A program made the position numbers and the translations under genes. Below, piece after piece: positions 2,691-45,642 of a stretch of DNA of 45,803 bases. The first letter of the stretch is position 1. Every line of letters begins with the position of its first letter. The notes beneath the pieces were generated by a model. The model saw nothing but the letters and a program-made list of their open reading frames with translations, was not told the DNA's origin and made no database searches. Origin of the DNA: Yinghuangia seranimata (lineage in GTDB: Bacteria; Actinomycetota; Actinomycetes; Streptomycetales; Streptomycetaceae); the NCBI RefSeq assembly GCF_029953285.1, contig NZ_JASAOI010000043.1, positions 1 to 45,803 of the forward strand, given 5' to 3'.

Positions 2691-4409
2691 GTGACCGTTT
2701 CCGCCCATGCTGCCCCCGTTGGCGCCCAGCCCCTTCCCGGGGCGTCGCCGTACCGGTCGGGGGTCACCGAGGACGGACTCGCGCGCCGCCTCAAAGCGCT
2801 GGCCTGCACCGCGCCCCTCCACGACCTGGAGGCCCGCAAGGCCAACCTCGCCGGCGAGTACACGGTCTACGCGATGGCCGAGCTCGGGCTGACCGCGATC
2901 GACCTGGTCACCGTGACGATGGACTTCGACACGGGCGCCGACCACGAGGACGTCGTCTCCCGCCTGCGCCCGCGCGTCGCCGCGCAGGCGCCGGAGCGCA
3001 GCCCGGCCGAGCACGAGCGGGTGGCCCGCTGGGTGCTGGAGAACCTCATCAACGTCGGCAGCGTCGACCGCGGCTTCCGCGCCGTCTACGGCACGTGGAC
3101 GCAGGGCGAGGGATACGTCCGCCGCGACTACGACTTCAAGCTGCTCGAAGAGGTCCCGGGGCCGGACGGCGACATCTTCCTGCGCGCCACCGACGAGGCG
3201 GTCAACGTCCTCGTCGGCGCGCTCGACACCGACGTCACCAGCGCGCAGATCGCCGCCGAGGTCAAGCTCGAACACCTGATCCGCCGCGGCCGCCTCGCCG
3301 AGGCCCGGTTCGCCGCCGAACAGGCCCGCTACCGCACCGTGCAGTACGCCGAAACGCTGCGCCGCGCGCTTGAGGCGACCCGCCGCAACGTGCGGGCCGT
3401 CGACTGGCTGCGCGCGGTCCCCGACCTGATAGACGAGGCGCTCGACCACGTCGCCGAGCGGTACCGGCACGAGAACGCGATCCTGACGAACATCCGGCGG
3501 GCGCGCGACGAGGCCGAGGAGCCCGACCACAAGCGCAGCGCGGCCGAGCTGGTCGACATCGTGCAGGACTGCATCCGCCGCCACACCCAGCTGCAGACCC
3601 GGCTCATGGAGGCCGGCCCGCTGTTCCGCGCCGAGCAGGACCGGCAGGCGTTCGCGGCGCGGCCGCAGCGCCCGGGGCTCGACCTGTACGGGCAGTTGCT
3701 GCGCCCCGTCCTCGAACTCGGCGTCGGGGACGCCCGCACCGTCACGGACCGGTTCTTCGCGACCGGCGTCGGCCTGCGCACACCGGTGTCGGTGCGCCTG
3801 TACGACCTCACCGAACTGCTGCTCACACCACCCGTCGAGCGCGAGCACCTCGGGGCCGAACTGCCCGAGCCCGACCTGGTGGAGAAGGCCGACGACAGCC
3901 GGTTCAGCGAGGCGCAGCACGATGCCGCGGCGGCCCTGCTCGACCTGCCGCCGGACGCGCCGCGGCGGCTGTCCGGGCTGCTCGCCGAGGCGCGCGCGAA
4001 CGACCCCGATCTGCCGTACCTGGTCGCGCTGCTCGCGTTCCACGCCGCGTCGCCGCCGGTCGGTACCGCGTTGCGGCAGGGCGACACGTCGCTGCTGGTC
4101 GCGGTCGACGACGGCGCGGTCCTCGACGACCCGGAGGTGGGCGGCGCGGACCTGATCGTCGGCACCGCGCTGCTGACCGGCGACGGCGGCTCGGCGGCGG
4201 GCGAACCGCCAGTAGTATCCGACGCGTTGGGCGGCCTCGGAGGCGACCTGCGCGACGCGCTCGCCGACGGCATCGACCTCCTCGACCCCGTGGCGGCCGC
4301 CCCGCCGCGCCCGGCCGCCGAACCGTCGGCACCGGTTGCACAGGCGGCACCGGCCGCCACGCCGCAAGCACCGCACATCACGCACCCCAGGGACGGGCAG
4401 GACGCATGA
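2691..4409 (+). CDS. Kleisin-like (MukF/MksF/JetA-type) subunit of an SMC complex
   Basis: A 572-residue, mostly helical, acidic protein heading a three-gene operon with a small MukE-like protein and a giant SMC-like ATPase. In MukBEF, MksBEF and Wadjet JetABC systems this position is held by the kleisin that bridges the ATPase heads and binds the MukE/JetB dimer. The N-terminal ~120 residues could form a winged-helix module, the middle (about 170-330) is a long charged helical region, and the C-terminal third ends in an Ala/Pro-rich tail (from about residue 530). It does not show the opening motifs I associate with DUF3375, the type I JetA family, so the assignment rests on operon architecture, size and helical character rather than a recognised signature. 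GTG at 2691 is preferred because it follows a TANNNT box directly; the in-frame ATG at 2646 would start 45 nt further upstream. Its stop overlaps the next start (ATGA). Confidence 0.6.
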   Translation: MTVSAHAAPVGAQPLPGASPYRSGVTEDGLARRLKALACTAPLHDLEARKANLAGEYTVYAMAELGLTAIDLVTVTMDFDTGADHEDVVSRLRPRVAAQAPERSPAEHERVARWVLENLINVGSVDRGFRAVYGTWTQGEGYVRRDYDFKLLEEVPGPDGDIFLRATDEAVNVLVGALDTDVTSAQIAAEVKLEHLIRRGRLAEARFAAEQARYRTVQYAETLRRALEATRRNVRAVDWLRAVPDLIDEALDHVAERYRHENAILTNIRRARDEAEEPDHKRSAAELVDIVQDCIRRHTQLQTRLMEAGPLFRAEQDRQAFAARPQRPGLDLYGQLLRPVLELGVGDARTVTDRFFATGVGLRTPVSVRLYDLTELLLTPPVEREHLGAELPEPDLVEKADDSRFSEAQHDAAAALLDLPPDAPRRLSGLLAEARANDPDLPYLVALLAFHAASPPVGTALRQGDTSLLVAVDDGAVLDDPEVGGADLIVGTALLTGDGGSAAGEPPVVSDALGGLGGDLRDALADGIDLLDPVAAAPPRPAAEPSAPVAQAAPAATPQAPHITHPRDGQDA

Positions 4410-5272
4410 CCGACCCCACCGTGCTGGACCGCCAGGCCCCGGCACCTCCCGCACTCACGCCCGCGGACGTCAGCGACGCGGCGCGCCTCGTGGCGTTCGG
4501 CCTGCAGCCCAAGCTGCTCCCGGCCCGGGACGCCGAGTACGCCGAACTCGTGCGCCGGCACCGCGAGGACCCGCGCTTCGCCGCGCTGTCCGACGCGGTG
4601 GCCGCCGGGCTCGGCCTCGTCGTGCTCGAGGTGTCGCCGCGCGCGGGGATGGCCGTGACCGCCGCCGAGGACTCGGTGTTCGCGGTCCGCATGAGCGACT
4701 ACGCGCGGCGCGCCTCCAGCGAGTCCGCCGACCGGTTCCTGCACGGCCTGGCCCATCTGGCCATAGCGGCACTGGCGTTCCCGCGCCCGGAGGACCTGGC
4801 CGAGGACGCGTACGTCGGCCGGATCAGCGTGCACGGCGTCGACGCGTTCGTCCGGCAGGCCTGCCGCCGCCTCGAACAGCGCGCCGAGGAGACCGGCGAG
4901 AACGCCGACCCGGCGACCGACGCGCCAGGCCTCGAGGCCGCGTGGCGGGTGTACGCGCGGCGCAGCGCGACCGGTGCGACCAAGGACGCGCGCCGGCTGT
5001 CGGCGTCCACCATCGGCATCGTCGGCAAGGCGGTCGCGTTCCTCGTCGACTCGGGCTTCCTGCAGCGGGTCTCGGACGAGGCCGGCGGCACCTACCGCAC
5101 GACCGCCCGCTACCAGCTCCAGGTGCGCGACATGGCGGGCAGCGCGGCGATGAGCGAGCTGCTCGAACTGGGCGTCGTCCCGGTGTCGGACGGCAGCGCC
5201 ACGCTGGTACCGCCGAGCGACGACGCGGGGGAGCTGGCGCCCGGCGCGGGGCTGCCGTTCCACGGGATCTGA
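4406..5272 (+). CDS. MukE/MksE/JetB-like subunit of an SMC complex
   Basis: A 288-residue protein translationally coupled to the kleisin-like gene (ATGA at 4406-4409). It is rich in helix-strand patterns consistent with tandem winged-helix domains. The segment near residues 200-245 (SASTIGIVGKAVAFLVDSGF, then a beta-hairpin ending in YQLQVRDM) looks like the recognition helix and wing of such a domain. In MukBEF-type complexes the E subunit dimerises, binds the kleisin and DNA, and modulates ATPase activity. Position and size (about 220-290 aa in the family) support this, but there is no single diagnostic motif. A 106-bp gap separates it from the ATPase gene, long enough for an internal promoter or processing site, although all three genes are codirectional. 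Confidence 0.6.
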   Translation: MTDPTVLDRQAPAPPALTPADVSDAARLVAFGLQPKLLPARDAEYAELVRRHREDPRFAALSDAVAAGLGLVVLEVSPRAGMAVTAAEDSVFAVRMSDYARRASSESADRFLHGLAHLAIAALAFPRPEDLAEDAYVGRISVHGVDAFVRQACRRLEQRAEETGENADPATDAPGLEAAWRVYARRSATGATKDARRLSASTIGIVGKAVAFLVDSGFLQRVSDEAGGTYRTTARYQLQVRDMAGSAAMSELLELGVVPVSDGSATLVPPSDDAGELAPGAGLPFHGI

Positions 5273-5378
5273 CCCGCTCTCCCGACGCACGCGAAGCACC
5301 CGCCGCACCACCGCGCCACCGCGCGGCACCCTCCAAGACCGTCCCCGGCCCGGCCGAACCGAGAGAAGACCGCCACCG

Positions 5379-8300
5379 ATGTACGAGCTGTCCCGCGTCC
5401 GCCTGTTCTCCATCGGGCCCGCGGGTGCGCGCTACGCCGACACCGTGCTCGACCTGCGCGGCGTCGGCGAGCCGGTGCCCGACCCGGCGCCGCGCCAGGC
5501 CCAGCTGTTCGAGGGCGAACCGGTCGGCCCGCCGCGCCGGCCCGCGCCCGCCGGCGTGCTGTTCCTGGAGAACGGCGGCGGCAAGTCGGTGCTGCTCAAG
5601 CTGATCTTCTCGGTCATGCTGCCCGGCCACCGCAACACGCTCGGCGGCGCGAGCTCGGGCGTGCTGCGCAAGTTCCTGCTCGCCGACGACTGCGGGCACG
5701 TGGCGCTGGAGTGGCAGCACACGCAGACCGGCGAACTGGTCGTCGTCGGCAAGGTCAGCGAGTGGCGCGGCCGCCAGGTCTCGTCCGACCCGCGCAAGTT
5801 CGCCGAGGCCTGGTACTCGTTCCGGCCCGGGCCCGGGCTCACGCTCGACGACCTGCCGGTGGTGTCCGCCGGACGCCGCCGCACCATGCGCGGGTTCCGC
5901 GACGCGCTCGCCGAGACCGTCAAGCTCTACCCCGACGTCGACGTGGTGTGGGAGGAGATCCACGAGAGGTGGAACGACCACCTCAACCACCTCGGCCTCG
6001 ACCCCGAGCTGTTCCGCTACCAGCGTGAGATGAACGCCGACGAGGGCGAGGCCGCGGGTCTGTTCGCGGTCAAGAACGACGCCGACTTCGTCGACCTGCT
6101 GCTGCGCGCCGTCACCGACACCGCCGACACCGACGGACTCGCGGACCTCGTCGACGGGTTCGCCGCCAAGCTGTCGCAGCGCGCCGAACTCATGGCCGAG
6201 CGCGACTTCGTCGAGGGCGCCACCGGTCTGCTGCACAGCCTCGCCGACACCGCGGACCAGCGCGGCCGGGTACGCGCCGCGCACCAGGCCGCGGAGCACG
6301 AGGCCCGCGAGCTCGGCCACCGCCTCGCGCTGCGCGCCGAACGCGAACGCGGCCGCGCCGCCGACCTGTCCGACCAGGTCGCGGCCGCCGCCGAAGCCGT
6401 CGACGCGGCGCAGCGGCAGCGCGCGCACACCTCGCTCGTCACCGCCGAGATCACCCACCGGCACGCGGCGATGCGGCTCGCCGCCGCGGAGGCGGACGGC
6501 GCCGCGCTCAAGCGCGAACTCACCGAGGCCCGCGGCCTGCACGCCGCCTGGCTCGGCACCGAGGCCGTGCTGCGGCAGCGCACCGCCGCCGACCGCGCGG
6601 AACGGGTCGCCGCCGCCATCCAGGCCGCCGAACGCGACGCCGCCCCCGCCCTCGCCGCCCGTCAGGCCGCCGCCGGGGCGCTGGTGCGCGCGCTGCACGC
6701 CGCCGCCACCGTCGCCGAGGAGCGGGCCGACGAGGAAGAGGCCCGCGCCGCCGAACTCCAGGACCGCGGCGAGGCCGCGCAGCGCGCCGCGACGGTCGCC
6801 GCGACCGAGTCGCAGCGCACCCGCAGTGAGGCCGTCCACCTGCGCGCCCGGCTCAGCGAGGTCGGCAGCGAGCTCGGCCAGGCCGTGGAGGCCGGCTGGA
6901 TCGCCGAGCACGACGACCCGGCGGAGGCCGCCGAACGCGCCGCCGCCGAGGAGAAGTCCGCGTCCGCCGCGTGGGGCGAGGCCCGTGCCGCCGTCGAGTC
7001 CGCCACCGGCGCGGTCCGCGACGCCGAGGCCGAACGCGGCCGCGCCCAACTCGCCGCCGCGCGCGCGTCGGACAAGCTGGCCGCCGCCGAACACGAGCTG
7101 GCGGGCGTGCAGGCGTCCGCGCGCGAGCTGCTCGACGAGCCGCGGGTGCGGGAACTGCTGAGCCTGGAAGGCGCGTTCGACGGGGCCGACGAGGGCCGTG
7201 GGCGAGGTGGCCGCGGCTCGGCGGGCGACGGTGCCGGGCGGGGCGACGGTCGCAACAGCGCGGACGGTGCGGACGACAGCGACGCCGGCGGGTACGGCGA
7301 GGGCGCGTCGGGCGAGTCCGCCGCGATGCGCGGTCGCAACGGGCGAACCGGCTTCGCGGGCCAGGCCGGTGACCTCGACGCGGACCAGGCCGCAGCCGAC
7401 GCCGAGTGGCCGAACGGGGCGTCGGGTAACGGGCGGCGCGGGGGCGCGGACCGGCGCCGTGCCGGGCGGCTGGACGCCTTCGGCCGCCGCGCCGACGACC
7501 CCGCGGGCCCCGCCGGTGTGCTCGACCGGGCGGCGGGCGTCCTCGCCGGGCTGCTCACCGACGCCGTGGCCGACGGCGAGCGCGCGTTGTTCGCGCTGCG
7601 CACCGAGGCCGCCGAGGACGCCCGGATCCTGGCCGCGCTCGGTGACGGGGGCCTGCTGCCGCCGAGCGCCGACGTGCTGGCCACCGTCGAGTACCTCGGC
7701 GAGCACGGCATCCCCGCGCTGCCCGGCTGGCGCTACCTCGCGCAGTCGGTGCCGGCCGAGCGGCACGCCGCCGTCCTGGCCGCGCACCCCGACCTCGTCG
7801 ACGGCGTCATCGTCACCTCGCCCACCGAAATGCCGCGCGCCCGCGAGGCGTTGGCGGAGGCCGCGCTGCTGCCCCGCTCGGCGGTCGCGGTCGGCACGCC
7901 CGACGCGCTGCTCGCCGCCCGCGAGTCCGCCGCGCCCGGCACCGAGGAGACGTTCCTCGTCCCGCCGAACCCCGCCATGCACGACGAACGCGCCGCCGAC
8001 ACCGAGCGCACCGCGCTGCGCCGCCGTGCCACCGACCGCGACGACGCCATCCGCGGCCGCGCCGCGCGCCTCGAGGGCGACAGGGCACTCGCCGGGCGCC
8101 TGGCCGCGTGGCGTGCCGCGTGCCCCGAGGGCCGGGTCGCCGAACTCGTGGGCGCCGTCGAGGCCGCCACCACCGCACTGGTCGACGCGCGCGCCGCGGG
8201 CAACGCCGCCGAGGCCGCCGCGGCCGCGGCCGAGACCGTGCGGGCCCGCGCCGTCGACCAGCGCGACCGCCGGATGGACGCCGCGCAGCTGGCCCGCCGC

Positions 8301-10283
8301 CGCGCCGACACGCTCGCGGGTCTCGCGTTCCGGCTGCGCGAACGCGCGGGCTGGACCCGGCGTATCCGCGAACTCGACCAGGAGACCGGCGAACACGAGC
8401 GTGCCGCCGAGGCCAACCAAGCGCACGCCCGCGCCGCCGACCAGGACCGCCGCCAGGCGCAGCGGGCCGCCGACGACGCCCGCCGCACCGCGCGCGCCCT
8501 GCGTGAGGAACGTGCCGCCATCAGCGGCGCGCCCGACGACGCCGACGCGGCAGAGACCGGCGAGCCGCCCGCCGCGCTGCCGGCGCTGCGCGAGGCGTAC
8601 CGGACCGCGTCCGTGCTGTACGACAAGGTCGGTGTCGGCGCGGACCTGCGCGCCGAGCAGGCCCGGGCGGAGAGCGAACAGGCCGCCGCGCAGGCGGCGT
8701 TGGACCGGCTGTCCGCGCGCGTGCGCAAGCACGCGGGCGAGCTGCTGGCCGGGCCGGACGGCGCCGACGGGCCGTCCCGGCTCGCCGCCGCGACCCGCGC
8801 CGAGGAGCACGTCCGGACGATCGAGGGCCGCGCCGACGCGGCCAACGAACTCCTCGGCCGGCTCCGCGGCGAGGCCGAGCGGCACGCACCCGGCGACGGC
8901 CGCGAGGCGCACGTCGAGCTGCCCGAGAGCCGTGTTCCGCGCGACCCGGAGCACGCGCAGGAGCTGCTGCGCGAGGCCGCGGCCGAGCAGGCCGCGTGCA
9001 CCGAGCGCGTCGACGCCGCCCGTGACACGCACACCCGGCTCGTCCGCGGGCTGTCCGACGCGGAGTCCGGCGCGGCGACGTTCGCCGAGATCTCGGTGTC
9101 GCTGACCGACACCCTGCCTGCCGCCGAGACGCCCGACGACGAGGACGCGGTGCCGTACGAGGGCGCCTCCACCGAGGCACGTGAGGCCGCCACCGGGTGC
9201 CGCCGCGCGCTGCGGGCCGCCGCGGGCGAGCTGTCGGCCGCCGAGGGGCAGGTCCGCGAACGCGCGGAGGCCGTCGTCCGGCACGCGGGCGCGGGCCGCT
9301 TCGAGCAGGTCCGCATGCCGGCCCGCCAGCAGATCCGCGAACTGCCGCTGTCCGCGCTGCCGGAGCACGCGCTGGCGTGGGCGGCGGCGTTCGAGCCGCG
9401 GCTGCGGGTGCTGACCGACGAGCTGGCGCAGATCGAGCGCAACCGCGACAGCATCGTCGACCGGCTGCGCGGCATGGTCGAGGCGTCGCTGACGACCCTG
9501 CGCGCGGCGCAGCGGCTGTCGCGGCTGCCGGAGGAGCTCGGCGAGTGGTCGGGCCAGGAGTTCCTGCGGATCCGGTTCGACGACCCGGACGCGGCGCACC
9601 TGTCCGACTGCCTCGGCGAGGTCGTCGACGAGGCCACCAAGGCGGCCCGGCGGACGGGCGCGGCGGCGGTGCGGCGCGACGGCATGACGCTGCTGCTGCG
9701 CGGCGTCCACGCGGGCCTGGCGCCGCGCGGCGTGCAGGTGGAGATCCTCAAGCCGGACTCGGTGCTGCGGGCCGAGCGTGTGCCGGTCGGTCAGATGGGC
9801 GACGTGTTCTCGGGCGGCCAGCTGCTGACCGCGGCCATCGCGCTGTACTGCACGATGGCGGCCCTGCGCTCGAACGACCGCGGGCGCGCGCGGCACCGGC
9901 ACGCGGGGACGCTGTTCCTGGACAACCCGATCGGCCGCGCGAACGCCGCGTACCTGTTGGAGCTCCAGCGGGCCGTCGCGGACGCGCTCGGCGTCCAGCT
10001 GATCTACACGACGGGCCTGTTCGACACGACGGCGCTGGCCGAGTTCCCGCTCGTCGTGCGCCTGCGCAACGACGCCGACCTGCGCGCGGGCCTGAAGTAC
10101 ATCTCCGTGGAGGAGCACCTCCGCCCTGGCCTGCCGCAGCCGAACCCGGAGATCCCCGAGGGCCTCGGCCAGATCCACGCGACACGGGTCTTCCGCAAGC
10201 CGGCCGACGCTCCGGGGGAGCCCTCGGCCGCCGAGCCGACGGTCGTCCACCCCCGCGACACCCCGGGCGTGAGCGTCCCCTAG
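5379..10283 (+). CDS. Giant SMC/MukB-like coiled-coil ATPase
   Basis: A 1634-residue protein with SMC layout. The N-terminal ATPase half has a P-loop LENGGGKSV (Lys69-Ser70). Long Ala/Glu/Arg-rich coiled coils follow at about 260-600 and 890-1350. A compact central region (about 735-870) is probably the hinge. The C-terminal ATPase half has the ABC signature FSGGQ (1477-1481) and a Walker B-like TLFLDNP (Asp1515, Asn1516). The usual catalytic Glu after the Walker B Asp is Asn. A Gly/Asp/Arg-rich low-complexity insertion (about 601-704) sits before the hinge. Together with the two upstream genes this forms a MukBEF/MksBEF/JetABC-like condensin, expected to extrude or entrap DNA using ATP. No topoisomerase-VI-like nuclease gene (JetD/MksG) is adjacent. 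RecN- or SbcC-type functions are less likely given the partners. The stop codon shares CTAG with the stop of the convergent gene. Confidence 0.8.
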   Translation: MYELSRVRLFSIGPAGARYADTVLDLRGVGEPVPDPAPRQAQLFEGEPVGPPRRPAPAGVLFLENGGGKSVLLKLIFSVMLPGHRNTLGGASSGVLRKFLLADDCGHVALEWQHTQTGELVVVGKVSEWRGRQVSSDPRKFAEAWYSFRPGPGLTLDDLPVVSAGRRRTMRGFRDALAETVKLYPDVDVVWEEIHERWNDHLNHLGLDPELFRYQREMNADEGEAAGLFAVKNDADFVDLLLRAVTDTADTDGLADLVDGFAAKLSQRAELMAERDFVEGATGLLHSLADTADQRGRVRAAHQAAEHEARELGHRLALRAERERGRAADLSDQVAAAAEAVDAAQRQRAHTSLVTAEITHRHAAMRLAAAEADGAALKRELTEARGLHAAWLGTEAVLRQRTAADRAERVAAAIQAAERDAAPALAARQAAAGALVRALHAAATVAEERADEEEARAAELQDRGEAAQRAATVAATESQRTRSEAVHLRARLSEVGSELGQAVEAGWIAEHDDPAEAAERAAAEEKSASAAWGEARAAVESATGAVRDAEAERGRAQLAAARASDKLAAAEHELAGVQASARELLDEPRVRELLSLEGAFDGADEGRGRGGRGSAGDGAGRGDGRNSADGADDSDAGGYGEGASGESAAMRGRNGRTGFAGQAGDLDADQAAADAEWPNGASGNGRRGGADRRRAGRLDAFGRRADDPAGPAGVLDRAAGVLAGLLTDAVADGERALFALRTEAAEDARILAALGDGGLLPPSADVLATVEYLGEHGIPALPGWRYLAQSVPAERHAAVLAAHPDLVDGVIVTSPTEMPRAREALAEAALLPRSAVAVGTPDALLAARESAAPGTEETFLVPPNPAMHDERAADTERTALRRRATDRDDAIRGRAARLEGDRALAGRLAAWRAACPEGRVAELVGAVEAATTALVDARAAGNAAEAAAAAAETVRARAVDQRDRRMDAAQLARRRADTLAGLAFRLRERAGWTRRIRELDQETGEHERAAEANQAHARAADQDRRQAQRAADDARRTARALREERAAISGAPDDADAAETGEPPAALPALREAYRTASVLYDKVGVGADLRAEQARAESEQAAAQAALDRLSARVRKHAGELLAGPDGADGPSRLAAATRAEEHVRTIEGRADAANELLGRLRGEAERHAPGDGREAHVELPESRVPRDPEHAQELLREAAAEQAACTERVDAARDTHTRLVRGLSDAESGAATFAEISVSLTDTLPAAETPDDEDAVPYEGASTEAREAATGCRRALRAAAGELSAAEGQVRERAEAVVRHAGAGRFEQVRMPARQQIRELPLSALPEHALAWAAAFEPRLRVLTDELAQIERNRDSIVDRLRGMVEASLTTLRAAQRLSRLPEELGEWSGQEFLRIRFDDPDAAHLSDCLGEVVDEATKAARRTGAAAVRRDGMTLLLRGVHAGLAPRGVQVEILKPDSVLRAERVPVGQMGDVFSGGQLLTAAIALYCTMAALRSNDRGRARHRHAGTLFLDNPIGRANAAYLLELQRAVADALGVQLIYTTGLFDTTALAEFPLVVRLRNDADLRAGLKYISVEEHLRPGLPQPNPEIPEGLGQIHATRVFRKPADAPGEPSAAEPTVVHPRDTPGVSVP

Positions 10284-10768
10284 GCGGCGGTCGGCTGGAG
10301 CTCGTCGCGTGCGGCGGGCTCCGCGCCGTGTGCCTCCGCGGCGGGGAGCAGGGCGCCCGCGAGGACGACTGCGGTTGCGGCGAGGTGGGCCTGGGCGGCC
10401 AGGGTGGGGGTCAGGGCCAGGCCTGCGGTCGTCGCGCCGAGGCGTTCTGCGGCTTGGACCGCGGCGGCGAGGAACGGGGTGCCCAGCGCCAGCAGGAGCG
10501 TGATCTCGCGGTTGGTCAGCGAGCGGGTGCGCAGCAGGCGGAGCGGCGCGCAGCAGGCGAGCGCCAGGGTGGCCGTCAGGTAGAGCAGGGTCATGGCGAC
10601 GGCGTCGGGCCCGTGCGGCATCCACACGGCGAACGCGGCCGGAGCGGCGGCGAGCAGCCAGACGCGCGAGAGGGCATGGGCGCCGGGGTCGGCGAGGCGG
10701 CGGACGGCCCACGGAGTCACGGCCAGAAGTTCCGCCGTGGTCAGCAGGTTGAGCAGGAGCGCGGGCAC
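10280..10768 (-). CDS. Small multi-pass membrane protein, possibly YndJ-like
   Basis: 162 residues with about five hydrophobic helices (near residues 1-18, 36-50, 55-75, 88-105 and 118-145) and a short hydrophilic C-terminus rich in Ala/Glu. It starts at GTG (complement of 10766-10768). The pattern resembles the membrane part of YndJ-family proteins, of unknown biochemical role, but the similarity is a recollection of style rather than a defined motif. It is convergent with the SMC gene, the two stop codons overlapping in CTAG (10280-10283). The region directly upstream of its start carries two perfect 14-bp palindromes, so expression is probably under a dimeric repressor not encoded in this window. 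Confidence 0.65.
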   Translation of the reverse strand: MPALLLNLLTTAELLAVTPWAVRRLADPGAHALSRVWLLAAAPAAFAVWMPHGPDAVAMTLLYLTATLALACCAPLRLLRTRSLTNREITLLLALGTPFLAAAVQAAERLGATTAGLALTPTLAAQAHLAATAVVLAGALLPAAEAHGAEPAARDELQPTAA

Positions 10769-10782
10769 TCGGTCCCCCCGAG

Positions 10783-10827
10783 TTGAACGTGTTCAAAGTC
10801 TGACAGGGGAGATTTGAACACGTTCAA
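10783..10827 (-). promoter_or_regulatory. Double operator: two perfect 14-bp palindromes TTGAAC-N2-GTTCAA
   Basis: TTGAACGTGTTCAA (10783-10796) and TTGAACACGTTCAA (10814-10827) have identical half-sites and differ only in the central dinucleotide. Their centres are 31 bp apart, close to three helical turns, so two dimers would bind the same face. They lie immediately upstream of the GTG start of the membrane-protein gene on the minus strand. Palindromes of this type are typical TetR-family operators; the regulator is not nearby. Confidence 0.75.
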
Positions 10828-10837
10828 GAGAGGAGGG

Positions 10838-11362
10838 TCAAGATTCGTTCGCGAACGGCGCGTAGACGGGGTCGGTGCGGTCCCGCCGTCCGGTCGACAC
10901 GCCGTCGGGGACCGGCCACCACCCCTCCGGGTCGTCCACCCGCACCCACTCCGTCGTGGCCACCCGCCGGGCGATCCGCCACACGCCGTCCCGCCGCGCG
11001 AAGTCGTCGACGTACCGGAACCCGATCGTCAGGTTCCCCCGCGGATCGGGCGACGCGCTGCGGTGGAAGGCGATCCCGTACGTCTCCGCCCGCGCCAGGT
11101 CGGCCGAGTCCTCCGGGAACTCCGCCAGATGGTTCGCGACCAGGTGCATCGTCGTCTCGTAGCGCGGCAGCAGCCGCCCCACCCACGCCACGAACTCGTC
11201 GGCCGTCCCCGTGAACGACCCGTGGTCGTCGGTCGCGTCCGGGTGGTAGCAGGAGCGCACCAGGTCGAGGTCCATCCGGTCGATCCCCCGGCAGTAGCGC
11301 AGCACCACGTCGTGGATCTCCTGCCGCGCGAGCAGCCGCGAAACCGCGTGATCGTTTTCCAT
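10838..11362 (-). CDS. SnoaL-like / NTF2-fold nuclear transport factor 2 family protein
   Basis: 174 residues with the cystatin-like alpha+beta cone pattern of SnoaL-type proteins. It opens with the helix SRLLARQEIHDVVLRYCRGI, has the acidic DLVRSCYHPDATDDHGSF loop, and ends in beta strands IGFRYVDDFARRDGVWRIARRVATTEWVR. Family members include aromatic-polyketide cyclases, limonene-epoxide-hydrolase-like enzymes and ring-hydroxylating dioxygenase beta-like proteins. The pair Tyr/Arg in the first helix plus the His-Pro-Asp-Ala loop is common in the uncharacterised scytalone-dehydratase-like subset. The ATG at 11360-11362 (MENDHAV) is chosen because the fold begins right after it; an upstream in-frame ATG would add an unstructured tail. 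It is divergent from the serpin gene (107 bp between starts). Substrate unknown. Confidence 0.8.
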   Translation of the reverse strand: MENDHAVSRLLARQEIHDVVLRYCRGIDRMDLDLVRSCYHPDATDDHGSFTGTADEFVAWVGRLLPRYETTMHLVANHLAEFPEDSADLARAETYGIAFHRSASPDPRGNLTIGFRYVDDFARRDGVWRIARRVATTEWVRVDDPEGWWPVPDGVSTGRRDRTDPVYAPFANES

Positions 11363-11469
11363 CCCCGGATTGTCGCGGCCGCGCATCGCGGCGGCCACCC
11401 CCGTCCTTTGGGTAGCGTCGAAGGGGAGGGACGGACCTCCCACCGGCGGACGAACGTGAGGCGGAGCGC

Positions 11470-12612
11470 ATGGCTTACGGCGAGTTGGATCTGACCGTCC
11501 AGGAGTACGCGGGCGAGATCCGCGAGCTCGGCTCCCGCTGGCTCGACGCCGTGCTGTCCGACCCCGCGGTGCGCGGCGCCGGCGGGAACGCCGCGTGCTC
11601 GCCCGCCGGGCTGTGGCTCGCCCTCGCGGCCGTCGCCTGCGGCGCGCTCGGCGACACCGCCGAGGAGCTCGCCGACCTGCTCGGCGCCGCCGGCGAGGAG
11701 GCCGCGCCGCTCGTCACCGCGGTGGCCCGCGACCTCGCGGCGACCGACGCGCTCGCCGTCGCCACCGGCGTGTGGAGCCGCACCCCCGTACGCCCGTCGT
11801 ACAGCGCCGCGCTGCCCGACCTGGAGACCGCCGAACTGGCCGACGTCTCCCGCATCGACGCCTGGGTCGCCGAGCACACCGACGGAATGATCGAACGACT
11901 GCCGGTCGACGTCACCGCCGAGACCCGGCTGTTGCTGGTGAACGCCCTGGCGATCAAGGCCCGTTGGGCGTTCCCGTTCGACCCGGCCAAGACCGTCGAC
12001 CGGCTCTTCACCGCCGCCGACGGCACCGCCGAAGCCGTCCCGTTCATGTTCCGCGAGGTCTCGCCCGTCGACGTCTGGACGGTCGGCGCCCACGGCGGCT
12101 CCGTCCACGTCGCCGAGCTGCGCTGCGCGGGCACGCACGGCGCCGTCGTGCGGTTCGCCCTCGGCCCGCAGGGTGCACCGCCCGCCCCCGTCATGAGCGC
12201 CGCCTGGGCGCCCCGCAGCACGGGGAACCCGGTGCCGCCGAACACCAAGGTCGTGCTGCGCCTGCCCCGCTTCGCGCTGCGCACCACCCTGGACGTCACG
12301 CGCCACCTGGGGGCGCTGGGCGTCGCGCTGGCGACGGATCCGCACGGCGCGGAGTTCGGCGGCATCTCCTCCGAGCAGCTCTACATCGACGCGGTCGCCC
12401 AGGAGTCGCTGCTGCGGGTCGCGGAGGAGGGCGTGGAGGCCGCCGCGGTCAGCGCGATCGCGATGGCGCCCGCGGGTCTGGTGCGGCCGCCCGAGAACCG
12501 CCTGGAGCTCACCTTCGACCGGCCGTTCGCGTGCGCCGTCCTCGACGCGTCGGGCGCGGTACCGCTGTTCGCCGGCTACCAGGCCGCCGTGCCCAGCCAC
12601 CCGGGCGCCTAG
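11470..12612 (+). CDS. Serpin family protein (serine protease inhibitor fold)
   Basis: 380 residues matching serpin landmarks in order: IDAWVAEHTDGMIERL (helix F-like region), LLLVNALAIKARWAFPFDP (strand 3A, the most conserved serpin stretch), VVLRLPRFAL (strand 3C), the hinge EEGVEAAAVSAIAM (about 319-332), then RPFACAVLDASGAVPLFAGYQ (351-371, strands 4B/5B). Inhibitory serpins trap proteases by inserting the reactive-centre loop into sheet A; the small-residue hinge is compatible with insertion, although P14 is Val rather than the usual Thr/Ser. The loop from the hinge Glu (319) to the RPF motif (351-353) is about six residues longer than in alpha-1-antitrypsin. There is no signal peptide, so the protein should act in the cytoplasm. 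A GAGG-type ribosome site (about 11458) precedes the ATG. Confidence 0.88.
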   Translation: MAYGELDLTVQEYAGEIRELGSRWLDAVLSDPAVRGAGGNAACSPAGLWLALAAVACGALGDTAEELADLLGAAGEEAAPLVTAVARDLAATDALAVATGVWSRTPVRPSYSAALPDLETAELADVSRIDAWVAEHTDGMIERLPVDVTAETRLLLVNALAIKARWAFPFDPAKTVDRLFTAADGTAEAVPFMFREVSPVDVWTVGAHGGSVHVAELRCAGTHGAVVRFALGPQGAPPAPVMSAAWAPRSTGNPVPPNTKVVLRLPRFALRTTLDVTRHLGALGVALATDPHGAEFGGISSEQLYIDAVAQESLLRVAEEGVEAAAVSAIAMAPAGLVRPPENRLELTFDRPFACAVLDASGAVPLFAGYQAAVPSHPGA

Positions 12613-27852: not shown

Positions 27853-30348
27853 ATGAAGGCCGTCGTCATGGCCGGTGGTGAGGGAACCCGGCTGCGCCCG
27901 ATGACCTCCAGCATGCCCAAGCCGCTCCTGCCGGTGGTCAACCGGCCGATCATGGAGCACGTGCTCAGGCTGCTGAAGCGCCACGGGTTCTCCGAGACCG
28001 TCGTCACCGTCCAGTTCCTCGCCTCGCTCGTCCGGAACTACTTCGGCGACGGCGAAGAGCTCGGCATGAGCCTGACGTACGCCAACGAGGAGACCCCGCT
28101 CGGAACCGCGGGAAGCGTCAAGAACGCCGAGGAGGCGCTGCGGGACGACACCTTCCTCGTCATCTCCGGCGACGCGCTCACCGACTTCGACCTCACCGAG
28201 CTCGTCGAGTACCACCGCGCCAAGGGCGCCATGGTCACCGTGTGCCTCACACGCGTGCCCGACCCCGTCGAGTTCGGCATCACGATCATCGACGAGGAGG
28301 GCCGCGTCGACCGCTTCCTCGAGAAGCCGACCTGGGGCCAGGTCTTCTCCGACACCGTCAACACCGGCATCTACGTCATGGAGCCGGAGGTCTTCGACTA
28401 CGTCGCCCCCGGCGTCAGCGTCGACTGGTCCGGCGACGTCTTCCCCAAGCTCCTCGAAGAGGGCAAGCCGATCTACGGCTACGTCGCCGAGGGCTACTGG
28501 GAGGACGTGGGCACCCACGAGTCCTACGTCAAGGCGCAGGCCGACGTCCTCGACGGCAAGGTCGACGTCGACATCGACGGCTTCGAGCTCGCGCCCGGCG
28601 TGTGGGTCGCCGAAGGCGCCGAGGTCGACCGCGAGGCCGTCCTCAAGGGCCCGCTCTACATCGGCGACTACGCCAAGGTCGAGGGCGGCGTCGAGATCCG
28701 CGAGCACACCGTCCTCGGCAGCAACGTCGTCGTCAAGCGCGGCGCGTTCCTGCACAAGGCCGTCGTCCACGACAACGTGTACGTCGGCCCGCAGACCAAC
28801 CTGCGCGGCTGTGTCGTCGGCAAGAACACCGACGTCATGCGCGCCGCCCGCATCGACGAGGGCGCGGTCATCGGCGACGAGTGCCTCATCGAGGAGGAGT
28901 CGCTGGTCGCGGCGGGCGTGCGCGTCTACCCGTTCAAGACCATCGAGGCCGGCGCCGTCGTCAACACCTCGGTCATCTGGGAGTCGCGCGGGCAGAAGAA
29001 CCTGTTCGGGCCGCGCGGCGTGTCCGGCATCCTCAACGTCGAGATCACCCCCGAACTCGCCGTCCGCCTCGCCGGCGCCTACGCGACCACGCTGAAGAAG
29101 GGCGCCACCGTCACCACGGCGCGCGACCACTCGCGTGGCGCGCGTGCGCTGAAGCGCGCGGTGATCTCCGCGCTCCAGGCCAGCGCGATCAACGTGCGCG
29201 ACCTGGAGAACGTGCCCATGCCGGTCGCCCGCACCGAGACCGCGCGCGGATCGGCGGGCGGCATCATGATCCGCACCACGCCGGGCGTCCCGGACTCCGT
29301 CGACATCATGTTCTTCGACGAACGCGGCGCCGACCTGTCCCAGGCCGCGCAGCGCAAGCTCGACCGTGTCTTCGGACGCCAGGAGTACCGCCGCGCGTTC
29401 CCCGGCGAGATCGGCGAACTCACCTTCCCGGCACGGCCCTTCGACAGCTACTCCGGCACGCTGCTCAAGACCGTCGACATCTCCGGCGTCTACGACTCCG
29501 GGCTCAAGGTCGTCGTCGACGCGGCGCACGGCAACGCGTCGCTGCTGCTGCCCAGCGTGCTCGGCCGGCTCGGCATCGACACGCTGTCCGTCAACACCGG
29601 ACTCGACGACGCCCGCCCCACCGAGACCGCCGAGGACCGCGCCGCCGGCCTGATCAGGCTCGGCGAGATGGTGTCCTCCGCGCGCGCGGCCTTCGGCGTC
29701 CGCTTCGACCCCGTCGGCGAACGCATGTCGCTCGTCGACGAACGCGGCCGCATCATCGACGACCACCGTGCGCTGCTGGTGTTCCTCGACCTGGTCGCCG
29801 CCGAACGACGCGGCGGGCGCATCGCGTTGCCGGTCACCACGACGCGCATCGCCGAACAGGTCGCCGCGTACCACGGGGTCCAGGTGCGGTGGACCACCAC
29901 GTCGCCCGACGACCTCGCGCGCGTCGCCGCGCAGGACGGCACCGTGTTCGGCGGCGACGGCCGCGGCGGCTTCGTGGTCCCGGAGTTCAGCACCGTCTTC
30001 GACGGCACCGCCGCGTTCGTGAGGCTCATCGGCCTCGTCGCCCGCACTCAGTTGACGCTCAGTCAGATCGACGCGCGCATCCCGCGTGCGCACGTGATGC
30101 GCCGCGACGTCCCGACGCCGTGGGCCGCCAAGGGCATGGTCATGCGTTCCGTCGTCGAAGCGGCGGGGGAGCGCGGCATCGACACCACCGACGGCGTCCG
30201 CGTCGTCGAGTCCGACGGCCGCTGGGTACTCGTGCTCCCCGACGTCGCCGAAGCCGTCACCCACCTGTGGGCCGAAGGCCCCGACGACGACGCGGCACGC
30301 GAACTCCTCGACGAATGGGCCGCGGTGGTCGAGCGCGCGGGAGACTGA
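27853..30348 (+). CDS. Sugar-1-phosphate nucleotidyltransferase fused to a degenerate phosphohexomutase
   Basis: 831 residues. Residues 1-235 form a nucleotidyltransferase with [11 protein letters not shown] (8-18), [11 protein letters not shown] (23-33), SGDALTDFD and [12 protein letters not shown]. Residues 250-370 show left-handed beta-helix hexapeptide repeats. Residues 390-831 follow the alpha-D-phosphohexomutase layout, but its three active loops are eroded: the phosphoserine loop TASHNP reads RTTPGV (474-479), the metal loop DGDGDR reads DPVGER (619-624), and the sugar loop GE(M/Q)SGH reads GDGRGG (701-706). The family is annotated as mannose-1-phosphate guanylyltransferase in Streptomyces, so it probably makes GDP-mannose or a related nucleotide sugar feeding the GT87 mannosyltransferases just upstream. 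The mutase part is likely structural or regulatory. A strong AGGAGG (27837-27842) precedes the ATG. Confidence 0.88.
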
Positions 30349-40874: not shown

Positions 40875-42311
40875 ATGCGAAAGACGTCGGCCATCCTCCA
40901 CCTCGACATGGACGCCTTCTACGCGTCCGTTGAGCAGGCCGCCAAGCCCAGTCTCAAAGGCAAGCCGGTCATCGTCGGCGGGGTCGGCGGCCGCGGTGTC
41001 GTGGCCACCGCGTCGTACGAGGCCCGGAAGTTCGGCGTGCGGTCCGCGATGCCGACCGGCGAGGCCCGCAGGCGGTGCCCCAACGCGGCGTTCCTGATCC
41101 CGCGGTTCAGCGCCTACCGCGAGGTCAGCGACCAGGTCATGGGGCTGCTGTCAGAGCTGTCGCCGCTGGTCGAACCGCTCAGCCTCGACGAGGCGTTCGT
41201 CGACCTCGAGGCCGGACCCTACGGCGAGGGGCTCGACACCGAGCGGGCCACGGAGCTCGCGGTGGAGCTGCGCGCCGAGATCCACGCCCGCACCGGGCTC
41301 ACCGCGTCGGTGGGGCTGGCGCCGTCCAAGCTCATCGCCAAGATCGCCTCGGAGGCCGCCAAGCCGGACGGCCTCGTGGTGGTGCCGCCGGGCGGCGAAC
41401 GCGCGCTGTTGGACCCGCTCCCCGTACGCGCCCTGTGGGGAGTCGGGCCGGCGACGGCCGAGACGTTGCGCAAGGTCGGCATCACGACGGTCGCCGGCAT
41501 CGCCGCCGCCGACCCCGACGAGCTGGTACGCATGTTCGGCCAGGCCCACGGGCGCGGCCTGCACGCCCACGCGCTGGGCCTCGACGACCGGCCCGTCGTC
41601 GCCGAACGCGACGCCAAGTCGGTCTCCGTCGAGGACACCTTCGAGGTGGACCTCGTCGACCGCGTCCGGATCACCGCCGAACTCGACCGCCTCGCCGCCC
41701 GCTGCGTCGAACGCCTGCGCGGCGCGGGCCGCTCCGGCCGCACCGTGGTGGTGAAGATGCGGCGGTACGACTTCAGCACGCTGACCCGCTCCGAGACCCT
41801 GCGCGCCCCCACCGACGACCTGGCGGTCGTGCGCGAGACCGTCCACCGGCTCGTGGCCCAGGTCGACTTCACGGGAGGCCTGCGGCTGCTCGGCGTGGGC
41901 GTGGCGTCGCTGGCGGACTTCGCGCAGCAGGACCTGTTCGGGACGGCGGACGAGGCGCCGGCGGACGAGGCGGGCGACCAGACCGGCGAGGCAGCGGACG
42001 CGCCGACGGAGCGACCCGACTCGGGCGACGCCGACGCCGCCGACCCGGAGGCCGCCGCCTACGGCAGCGTCCCGGTCTTCCACCCCGGCCGGTTCGGCAA
42101 CGCCCGCTGGCTCCCGGGCCAGGACGTCGAGCACACGGAGTTCGGCCCGGGCTGGGTCCAGGGCAGCGGCGTGGGCCGGGTGACGGTCAGGTTCGAGACC
42201 CCGGGATCACCCCCGGGCAGGATCCGCACCTTCCCGGAGGACACCCCGGACCTCAAGGCCACGCCACCGCTGCCCCTGGTCCCGCCGGGCAACACCGAGG
42301 CCACGACGTAG
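40875..42311 (+). CDS. dinB: DNA polymerase IV (Y-family) with extra C-terminal domain
   Basis: 478 residues. Catalytic carboxylates are Asp11 (HLDMDAFYASVE) and Asp105-Glu106 (SLDEAFVDL), with Tyr16 as the likely steric gate. The thumb (GVGPATAETLRKVGITTVAG) and little-finger region are intact. QQDLF (351-355) is a beta-clamp binding motif. After an acidic linker (about 358-398) comes an additional compact segment, residues about 410-460 (WLPGQDVEHTEFGPGWVQGS...RVTVRFETP), resembling a DUF3553/tudor-like module found at the ends of some helicases and polymerases. Translesion synthesis across damaged templates is expected; the extra module may bind protein or nucleic acid. GGAGG (40868-40872) precedes the ATG by 2 nt, an unusually short gap. 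Ends 166 bp before the glycine riboswitch. Confidence 0.94.
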   Translation: MRKTSAILHLDMDAFYASVEQAAKPSLKGKPVIVGGVGGRGVVATASYEARKFGVRSAMPTGEARRRCPNAAFLIPRFSAYREVSDQVMGLLSELSPLVEPLSLDEAFVDLEAGPYGEGLDTERATELAVELRAEIHARTGLTASVGLAPSKLIAKIASEAAKPDGLVVVPPGGERALLDPLPVRALWGVGPATAETLRKVGITTVAGIAAADPDELVRMFGQAHGRGLHAHALGLDDRPVVAERDAKSVSVEDTFEVDLVDRVRITAELDRLAARCVERLRGAGRSGRTVVVKMRRYDFSTLTRSETLRAPTDDLAVVRETVHRLVAQVDFTGGLRLLGVGVASLADFAQQDLFGTADEAPADEAGDQTGEAADAPTERPDSGDADAADPEAAAYGSVPVFHPGRFGNARWLPGQDVEHTEFGPGWVQGSGVGRVTVRFETPGSPPGRIRTFPEDTPDLKATPPLPLVPPGNTEATT

Positions 42312-42477: not shown

Positions 42478-42680
42478 CGTGCGGGAGAGTCCCGGTCCCC
42501 GAGCCGGGCGCCGAAGGAGCAACCCCTCCCCGGAATCTCTCAGGCACCCGTACCGCGCGACCATGGGCACTCTGGAAAGCAGTCCCGGCGCGTTGTCGGC
42601 GGGGCTCACCGACGGTGAAAGCCTCCGGCCGGCGCTACCGGCCACGGGGTGAAGCTCTCAGGTACCGATGACAGAGGGGG
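42478..42680 (+). promoter_or_regulatory. Tandem glycine riboswitch controlling gcvP
   Basis: Two glycine aptamers are recognised by their conserved segments. Aptamer 1 has GCGGGAGAG (42481-42489), GCCGAAGGAGCAA (42511-42523) and AATCTCTCAGGCACC. Aptamer 2 has CACTCTGGAAAGC (about 42569), CACCGACGGTGAAA and GAAGCTCTCAGGTACC, ending with GACAGAGGGGG (42670-42680). The spacing between aptamers is short, as in cooperative tandem switches. Binding of glycine normally turns on glycine cleavage genes; here the next gene is gcvP, 61 bp downstream. The expression platform is not resolved; CCTCC in GGAGGCCTCCACGTG near 42730 could mask the ribosome site. Confidence 0.95.
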
Positions 42681-42741
42681 AGGCCTACCGAGGCCACGCG
42701 TCCCTGCGTGGTCTCGCCGGAGCGATCCTGGAGGCCTCCAC

Positions 42742-45642
42742 GTGAGTTCGTCGTTCACTCCCCGGGTTTCCGGGCCCGGCAGCCTTGCCGGCCTGGAATC
42801 GGCCGCGCCGTTCACCGGTCGGCACATCGGCCCGGACACCGACGAGCAGGCCAAGATGCTCGCCCACATCGGCTTCGGGTCGCTCGACGAGCTGACCGAC
42901 GCCGCCGTGCCGGGCGCCATCCGCACGCTCGACCGGCTCGCGCTGCCCGAGGCGGTCAGCGAGGCCGCCGTCCACGACCAGCTGCGCGCGCTCGCCGCCC
43001 GCAACACCGTGCTGCGCTCCATGATCGGCCTCGGCTACTACGGCACCCACACGCCGCCGGTCATCCTCCGCAACGTGCTGGAGAACCCGGCCTGGTACAC
43101 CGCGTACACGCCGTACCAGCCGGAGATCTCGCAGGGCCGCCTGGAGGCGCTGCTCAACTTCCAGACGATGGTCTGCGACCTGACCGGCCTCGACGTCGCC
43201 GGCGCCTCGCTGCTCGACGAGGGCACCGCGGCCGCCGAGGCGATGACCCTCGCGCGCCGCTCCGGCCGCGCCAAGAGCAACGTCTTCCTCGTCGACGCCA
43301 CCGTCCTGCCGCAGACGATCGAGGTCGTGCGCACCCGCGCGGAGGCGCTCGACATCGAGGTCCGGGTCGTCGACACCTCCGCCGGGCTGCCCGAGGGCGA
43401 GTTCTTCGGCGCGCTGCTCCAGTACCCGGGCGCCGACGGCCGGGTCCGCGACCTGACCGCGCTGGTCGAGGACGCGCACGGCCGCGGCGCGTTCGTCGCC
43501 GTCGCCGCCGACCTGCTCGCGCTCACGCTGCTGACCAGCCCGGGCGCGATGGGCGCCGACATCGCCGTCGGCACCACGCAGCGCTTCGGCGTCCCGATGG
43601 GCTTCGGCGGTCCGCACGCCGGATACCTGGCGGTCCGCGACAAGCTCGCCCGCTCGCTGCCCGGCCGCCTCGTCGGCGTCTCCGTCGACGCGGACGGCGA
43701 CCAGGCGTACCGCCTCGCGCTCCAGACCCGCGAGCAGCACATCCGCCGCGAGAAGGCGACGAGCAACATCTGTACGGCGCAGGTCCTGCTCGCCGTCATG
43801 GCCGGCATGTACGCGGTCTACCACGGCCCCGAGGGCCTGACCGAGATCGCGCGCCGCACCCACCGCTACGCCGCGATCCTCGCGGCCGGCCTGCGCGCCG
43901 GCGGCGTCGAGATCGTGCACGAGCACTTCTTCGACACCGTCCACGTGCGCGTGCCGGGCCGGGCCGCCGCGGTCCGCGAGTCGGCGCGCGGCGAGGGCGT
44001 CAACGTCTTCCAGCCCGACGCCGACCACGTCACCATCAGCTGCGACGAGACCACCACGCGCGCCGACCTGGCCGCCGTGTGGCGGGCGTTCGGGGTCGCC
44101 GAGGCCGACGTCGAGGTGCTCGACGCCGCGACCGCCGACGCGCTGCCCGACGGGCTCGAGCGCACCGGCGAGTTCCTCACCCACCCGGTCTTCCACGAGC
44201 ACCGCTCCGAGACCGACATGCTGCGCTACCTGCGCCGCCTCGCGGACAAGGACTACGCGCTCGACCGCGGCATGATCCCGCTCGGCTCGTGCACGATGAA
44301 GCTCAACGCGACGTCGGAGATGGAGCCGGTCACCTGGCCGGAGTTCGCGAACATGCACCCGTTCGCGCCCGCCGACCAGGCCGCCGGGTACCTCGAGCTG
44401 ATCCACGGCCTGGAGGACGCGCTCGTCGCCGTCACCGGCTACGACAAGGTGTCGATCCAGCCCAACGCCGGGTCGCAGGGCGAGCTCGCGGGCCTGCTCG
44501 CGGTGCGCGCCTACCACCGGGCGAACGGCGACACGGCGCGCGACGTCTGCCTGATCCCGTCCTCCGCGCACGGCACCAACGCGGCCAGCGCCGTGATGGC
44601 CGGCATGCGCGTGGTCGTCGTCGGCACCGGCGAGAACGGCGACGTCGACCTCGACGACCTCAAGGCCAAGATCGAGAAGCACCGCGACAGCCTCGCCGTG
44701 CTCATGGTCACCTACCCGTCCACGCACGGCGTGTTCGAGGAGCACATCGGCGACGTGTGCGCGCTCGTGCACGACGCCGGCGGCCAGGTCTACGTCGACG
44801 GCGCGAACCTCAACGCGCTGGTCGGGCTCGCCCAGCCGGGCAAGTTCGGCGCGGACGTCTCGCACCTGAACCTGCACAAGACGTTCTGCATCCCGCACGG
44901 CGGCGGCGGCCCCGGCGTCGGCCCGGTCGCGGTGCGCGAGCACCTCGCCCCGTACCTGCCGAACCACCCGCTGCAGCCGACCGCGGGGCCCGCCACCGGC
45001 GTCGGACCGATCTCGGCCGCGCCGTGGGGCTCGGCGGCGATCCTGCCGATCTCGTGGACGTACATCCGCCTGATGGGTCCGGACGGCCTCAAGCGCGCCA
45101 CCCAGGTCGCGGTGCTCAGCGCGAACTACATCGCGCGTCGCCTCGCGCCGCACTTCCCGGTGCTCTACACGGGTCCCGGCGGGCTGGTCGCGCACGAGTG
45201 CATCGTCGACCTGCGCGGCATCACCAAGGCGACCGGCGTGACCGTGGACGACGTGGCCAAGCGCCTCATCGACTACGGATTCCACGCCCCGACCATGTCG
45301 TTCCCGGTGCCGGGCACCCTCATGATCGAGCCGACCGAGAGCGAGAACCTGGTCGAGATCGACCGGTTCTGCGACGCGATGATCGCCATCAAGGGCGAGG
45401 TCGACCGCGTCGGCGCCGGCGAACTGCCCGCCGACGACAACCCGCTGTGCAACGCCCCGCACACCGCCGCGATGGTCGCCGGCAACGACTGGGCGCACGC
45501 CTACAGCCGCGAAGAGGGCGCCTTCCCCGGCGGCGTCAAGGCCGCCGGGAAGTACTGGCCGCCGGTCCGCCGCATCGACGGCGCGTACGGCGACCGCAAC
45601 CTGGTCTGCTCCTGCCCCTCCCCGGAGGCCTTCGAGAGCTGA
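42742..45642 (+). CDS. gcvP: Glycine dehydrogenase (decarboxylating), glycine cleavage P protein
   Basis: 966 residues, the single-chain type. The N-terminal half shows [40 protein letters not shown] and [20 protein letters not shown]. The C-terminal catalytic half has [48 protein letters not shown] and the PLP-binding Lys713 in [18 protein letters not shown]. It decarboxylates glycine and passes the aminomethyl group to lipoylated GcvH in the cytoplasm. GTG at 42742 follows GGAGG (42730-42734); the longer frame upstream overlaps the riboswitch. Expression is governed by the tandem glycine riboswitch. Its partner gcvH is in this window, but gcvT is not. Confidence 0.97.

Follow-up and report, generated by a model that had tools for sequence, protein, structure and literature searches.

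A Wadjet type III-like jetABC operon without JetD is present across the Streptomycetaceae and may encode a second condensin-like complex

Wadjet is described in a review as cleaving DNA after measuring a small circle. The MksBEF complex of Pseudomonas aeruginosa, a chromosomal and Wadjet-like motor that is thought to have lost its nuclease, and likely also MukBEF, have been proposed to derive from Wadjet through the loss of JetD (PMC10586767). Moreover, a 2025 study (PMC7617805) counts several members of the Wadjet group without MksG/JetD, MukBEF of Escherichia coli among them, which folds the chromosome. The loss of JetD as such is already known, and what appears to be new in the present analysis is a family-wide, nuclease-less type III operon in Streptomycetaceae. 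No description of a JetD-less type III operon in this family was found, and none is mentioned in the available text of PMC10586767, PMC10482375, PMC13121528, PMC8410768, PMC10123090, and PMC10512200; the Wadjet operons listed in the supplement of PMC7617805 may include the lineage. The complex is likewise unmentioned in the available text of two papers on Streptomyces Smc.

The window, a stretch of 45,803 nucleotides from Yinghuangia seranimata (contig NZ_JASAOI010000043.1), carries at positions 2691-10283 three same-direction open reading frames in the order jetA-jetB-jetC, of the Wadjet type III kind. The three codirectional genes with products of 572, 288, and 1634 amino acids that a first-pass annotation had reported correspond to these frames. 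The jetA-like gene (2691..4409, forward strand), for which both GTG at 2691 and ATG at 2646 are possible starts, encodes a predicted kleisin of 572 amino acids that matches the PADLOC JetA3 model (PDLC00567, E=2.8e-187). Between jetA and jetC sits the jetB-like gene (4406..5272, forward strand), encoding a predicted KITE subunit of 288 amino acids and overlapping jetA through an ATGA at 4406, as expected from the coupling claimed for the first two genes; the overlap is present in only 22 of 113 loci, with starts chosen mechanically, and is thus not general. The jetC-like gene (5379..10283, forward strand) encodes an SMC ATPase of 1634 amino acids that matches PADLOC JetC3 (PDLC00588, E=0, 1421 bits). 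The gap between jetB and jetC has a median of 63 bases (n=112 loci), the largest being that of locus L066 (genome G036), where about 5.3 kb and four other predicted genes lie between the two.

By PADLOC, JetA and JetC of the window match type III models only and none of type I or II. JetB gives no direct PADLOC match and no meaningful match in Pfam or NCBIfam, and shares 53% identity with JetB from a complete JetABCD on a plasmid of Rhodococcus pseudokoreensis, a protein that itself matches PADLOC JetB3 weakly (E=4e-4); JetA is also 53% identical to its counterpart in that system. The JetA and JetC models, the gene order, and these identities are common to the window operon and Wadjet type III. 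Pfam and NCBIfam give nothing useful for the three proteins, with no match to the MukB, MukE, and MukF families, none to Smc or ScpA families, and no Pfam family at a meaningful score for JetA, in line with the remark that the first protein lacks DUF3375 features. The proposal of a new SMC class finds no support, since JetA and JetC fall within the known type III models. No kleisin or KITE protein related to JetA or JetB came out of a sequence search of solved structures, and JetC alone returned nothing; the matches of a JetC profile were of low complexity, a coiled coil of Smc (E=4.3e-5) among them. Predicted structures of JetA and JetB were unusable (mean pLDDT 41.5 and 49.4, respectively). 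JetA and JetB are thus designated as predicted kleisin and predicted KITE subunit by their family names, and an SMC ATPase, a kleisin, and a KITE subunit would, by analogy, be common to this operon and Smc-ScpAB. At least 439 of 588 candidate stretches encode a relative; among the best 80 of them, the closest named one is JetB of Yinghuangia soli (93% identical), and the remaining 79 comprise 78 from Streptomyces and one from Streptantibioticus. A scan of viral contigs with JetB found no relatives.

The ATPase motifs of JetC agree in alignment with those of nuclease-bearing relatives. The Walker A motif ENGGGKS (residues 64-70; 5568..5588, forward strand) is identical in 113 of 114 core JetC proteins, and both the ABC signature FSGGQ (residues 1477-1481; 9807..9821, forward strand) and the Walker B-like strand LFLDNP (residues 1512-1517; 9912..9929, forward strand) are identical in 103 of 105. 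A conserved block at about residues 715-870 fits a hinge, and a Gly/Asp/Arg-rich insert (approximately 7173..7517, forward strand) lies 5' of this hinge-like block and, in the six other rows compared, is either missing or not as long. Thus, of the features that had been ascribed to the 1634-residue protein, the P-loop, the signature, and the Walker B strand are borne out and the hinge-like centre fits, while for the coiled coils there is just the Smc profile match given above. In SMC ATPases, the residue that usually follows the Walker B Asp is the catalytic Glu. In JetC, this position holds an Asn, and neither D1515 nor N1516 varies among the 13 JetC rows of alignment A7; since 11 of these rows are nuclease-bearing, the Asn is a trait of the type and not of the nuclease-less branch.

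JetB was found in 389 of 394 Streptomycetaceae genomes, representing 17 of 17 genera, and in 385 of these 389 at E<=7e-121. The weaker matches are those of G011, G013, G479, and G489, of which G013, G489, and G479 hold JetA at 70-75% identity. Among the five genomes without a JetB match, G538, G541, and G624 have JetA at 76-78% identity and G480 and G616 have no JetA match; as JetA was found in the other genomes with weak or missing JetB, the core form is without evidence in G011, G480, and G616 alone among the 394. In another set, JetA matched in 36 of 36 family genomes other than that of Y. seranimata, in 35 of them at 72-86% identity and in G011 at 29%. The sole JetA and JetB matches of G011 (L078), an assembly that is 93% complete and without a ScpA match, belong to a divergent complete JetABCD. 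Among 116 fetched loci, 112 keep the A-B-C arrangement with all three genes on the same strand. Outside the family, JetA is sporadic (two of 24 genomes), and in a sample of 396 genomes from the phylum it occurs in 17, namely 12 Streptomycetaceae and five others. Matches to ScpA, which is part of the standard condensin, were obtained in 22 of 23 family genomes, including Y. seranimata, in which the ScpA gene is separate and lies on another contig, and in 35 of 37 genomes overall, with G011 and G050 giving none.

Upstream of the operon in the window lies a gene for a HEAT_2-like protein, which falls 0.5 bit short of the Pfam cut-off (E=4.9e-6), and a convergent gene for a YndJ-like protein (E=9e-13) follows downstream; this agrees with the flanks described earlier, a fourth nuclease gene being absent from both. 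The HEAT cluster is present in 22 loci; common neighbours of the core operon are 5-oxoprolinase, LamB/YcsF, carboxyltransferase, MFS, and GntR proteins (one representative scanned per cluster), and in many species a NIT/HAMP histidine kinase and a roadblock protein are found downstream. The surroundings of the core operon are largely metabolic and are not a defence island. Elsewhere in the window, all on the forward strand, are genes for a 380-amino-acid protein that presumably resembles a bacterial serpin (11470-12612), a nucleotidyltransferase-phosphomannomutase fusion (27853-30348), a Y-family DNA polymerase (40875-42311), and a glycine dehydrogenase (42649-45642). In 33 single-contig genomes, with positions transcribed by hand and sizes mostly rounded to 0.1 Mb, the operon has a median position 16% inward of the closer contig end, and three of these genomes have it in the outer 10%; for Lamassu and Wadjet systems of Streptomyces, more than 43% have been placed within the outer 10% (PMC10482375).

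The near-universal presence of the operon, its largely conserved place, its occurrence beside Smc-ScpAB, and the large linear chromosomes of its hosts make a second chromosome organiser the best account of these observations, and the "actinobacterial condensin" that the first-pass annotation listed among three alternatives is the one that fits best. It is thus probable, with appreciable room for doubt, that the operon encodes a domesticated Wadjet III motor, which lost JetD before the Streptomycetaceae genera split, has been retained ever since in a housekeeping role, and now acts as a second condensin-like loop extruder beside Smc-ScpAB. Streptomycetaceae meet many conjugative plasmids, a circumstance that counts for a defence that does not cut, in which JetABC would extrude and compact small circular plasmids and thereby silence them or block their segregation, in the manner proposed for Smc5/6 acting on viral circles. 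The presumed ancestor restricted plasmids, the motor is intact, and Smc5/6 is described as restricting extrachromosomal circles of DNA, possibly by compacting them (PMC10586767). Nevertheless, JetABCD operons are sporadic, whereas this one is nearly universal and lies among largely metabolic genes, and a non-cutting anti-plasmid role is considered unlikely, though it is the foremost of the alternatives.

An alternative in which cutting is maintained is that the complex recruits an unrecognisable nuclease encoded elsewhere. The core proteins retain almost every position that is conserved at >=90% in nuclease-bearing rows (43 of 44 in JetA, 18 of 19 in JetB, and 88 of 93 in JetC), which would also suit a nuclease acting in trans. 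However, the JetD_C family (PF09983) gives no match in the Y. seranimata genome with E allowed to reach 10, although two control genomes do match, and among 37 family genomes it was found in three, in one of them weakly. JetD3 profiles were built from JetD proteins adjoining JetABC genes (A1 with four rows and A6 with eight rows); the first four seeds match PADLOC JetD3, and the profile matches MksG among solved structures weakly (E=0.068). Neither profile found anything in the Y. seranimata genome, where 33 of 105 and 5 of 108 first-look candidates were scored, respectively, and the suggestion of a nuclease encoded elsewhere in this genome is thus supported by neither JetD3 nor JetD_C profiles. 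Across the family, JetD3 was found in 35 of 394 genomes and gave no match in 359, the five best candidates being scored per genome, so that a very divergent JetD could be missed. At the locus itself, 101 of the 116 core loci, the window included, have a complete JetC and >=1.5 kb downstream, and JetD3 is present in none of them; loci L041-L075 and L087-L166 are without JetD3 by the four-row profile, not the later eight-row one, and L041/L087 and L048/L102, two pairs on contigs of equal length, are probably duplicate records. When a replacement fourth gene was sought with a crude GC-frame gene caller, the commonest next gene was convergent and without a Pfam match (cluster 5, 61 loci), and the histidine-kinase/roadblock genes (cluster 6) were co-directional further downstream and directly next in some loci; by this crude gene calling, no nuclease-like gene conserved at the locus was seen. 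A nuclease supplied in trans is, on these grounds, even less probable than a compaction-based defence, with roughly one chance in eight.

Nuclease-bearing relatives do exist in the same family. A second JetB occurs in 31 family genomes, 29 of which, as counted by hand, also hold JetD3, G604 and G756 being the two without it; G013, G479, and G489 are excluded from the 31, as in each of them the three to four matches seem to be fragments of a single gene. One contig of 8.0 Mb in G248 carries both a complete JetABCD (L174) and the nuclease-less core operon (L178). From the 35 genomes with JetD3, 19 loci were fetched, of which 13 carry JetA, JetB, JetC, and JetD3, two are cut by a contig end, and four (L206, L218, L219, and L220) have JetD3 without intact JetABC, L206 with a short JetC match; the latter four are possible orphan nucleases. 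Strong JetD_C matches without JetA3, JetB3, or JetC3 nearby were seen in L179 (G030) and L180 (G036), which are probably other Wadjet types. Without JetD as bait, 11 non-core JetA loci were found (L172-L177, L078, L182, L183, L081, and L082, with plasmid matches H2, H4, and H5 outside this set), of which seven adjoin JetD3, two are at a contig edge, and two look decayed; L078, L081, and L082 among the seven also seeded the JetD3 profile. In L175 (G441; 8680-11984), another of the seven, JetA and JetC matches share one frame adjoining JetD3 and there is no JetB, as if an internal deletion had taken out the middle of the operon. L172 (G334; 2699-6311), from outside the family, has a truncated JetC followed by a reverse-strand, TetR-looking frame and no JetD3; it is a decayed system and, its JetC being truncated, was not counted as a further nuclease-less operon.

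In an unrooted JetA tree of 58 rows, from which the fragment L075 is omitted, all 35 core rows fall into a single group (SH-aLRT 97) adjacent to nuclease-bearing rows, each genus with two or more rows groups together, and a single change of the JetD label is needed, four rows of uncertain JetD state being left uncounted. A JetC tree of 38 rows, which uses 21 of 114 core rows and omits L078 and L177 for their long branches, agrees with it, with a support of 100 for the core group. Both trees are unrooted and quick, with long branches among the nuclease-bearing rows, most of which were found through JetD itself. Given this single nuclease-free group next to nuclease-bearing type III systems, the simplest account is that JetD was lost once and that the motor was then vertically inherited. 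A loss is preferred to a late gain of JetD because JetD is also part of Wadjet types I and II, for which PADLOC holds JetD1 and JetD2 models. An even chance is given to the broader reading that, at the root of Streptomycetaceae, nuclease loss independently converted an SMC complex for plasmid restriction into a chromosome organiser. For eight pairs and three genes, dN/dS is 0.06-0.21, indicating purifying selection; together with intact motifs and family-wide presence, these values refute a decaying Wadjet remnant left by a recent loss of JetD, for which a parallel could be drawn with the decayed type III loci L172 and L175 and which retains hardly any probability. A recent deletion, which would leave JetD linked to the operon in relatives, was checked and is rejected on account of the JetD-free core loci and the family-wide JetB matches, as relatives across Streptomycetaceae are without JetD at the locus.

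In the proposed second chromosome organiser, JetC would dimerise at its hinge, JetA would bridge the JetC heads with JetB bound, and ATP hydrolysis would power DNA loop extrusion, by analogy with type I Wadjet and MukBEF. As no nuclease is present, extrusion would end without cleavage and the complex would act on chromosomal DNA, perhaps in the compaction or segregation of large linear chromosomes in multigenomic hyphae. Compared with Wadjet type III, the operon is without JetD, chromosomal, and family-wide, whereas JetABCD is sporadic and partly plasmid-borne; as the defining nuclease was searched for and not found, it should not be classed as a Wadjet defence system. With its co-directional jetA, jetB, and jetC, its Walker motifs, and no JetD at its flanks, it has the features of a JetD-less SMC complex of the Wadjet group. 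From MksBEF it is set apart by family models alone, which place it on another branch, only type III being matched here. Unlike MukBEF, which according to a review apparently replaced Smc-ScpAB, the window operon coexists with ScpA.

If this reading is true, the operon would have followed the route suggested for MukBEF and MksBEF as a second, cleanly traceable example, and intact JetABCD relatives survive in some of the same genomes. That chromosome organisers such as MukBEF arose from defence systems through nuclease loss is an open proposal (PMC10586767). In the present family, a tree can locate the loss, nuclease-bearing relatives allow a comparison, and both versions occur together in some genomes, such as G248. 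For genome surveys, JetA or JetC matches alone would score nearly every Streptomyces as Wadjet-positive. The family would gain a second, unstudied condensin, and should this complex shape the linear chromosome, a component would be missing from models that explain Streptomyces chromosome folding by Smc-ScpAB alone.
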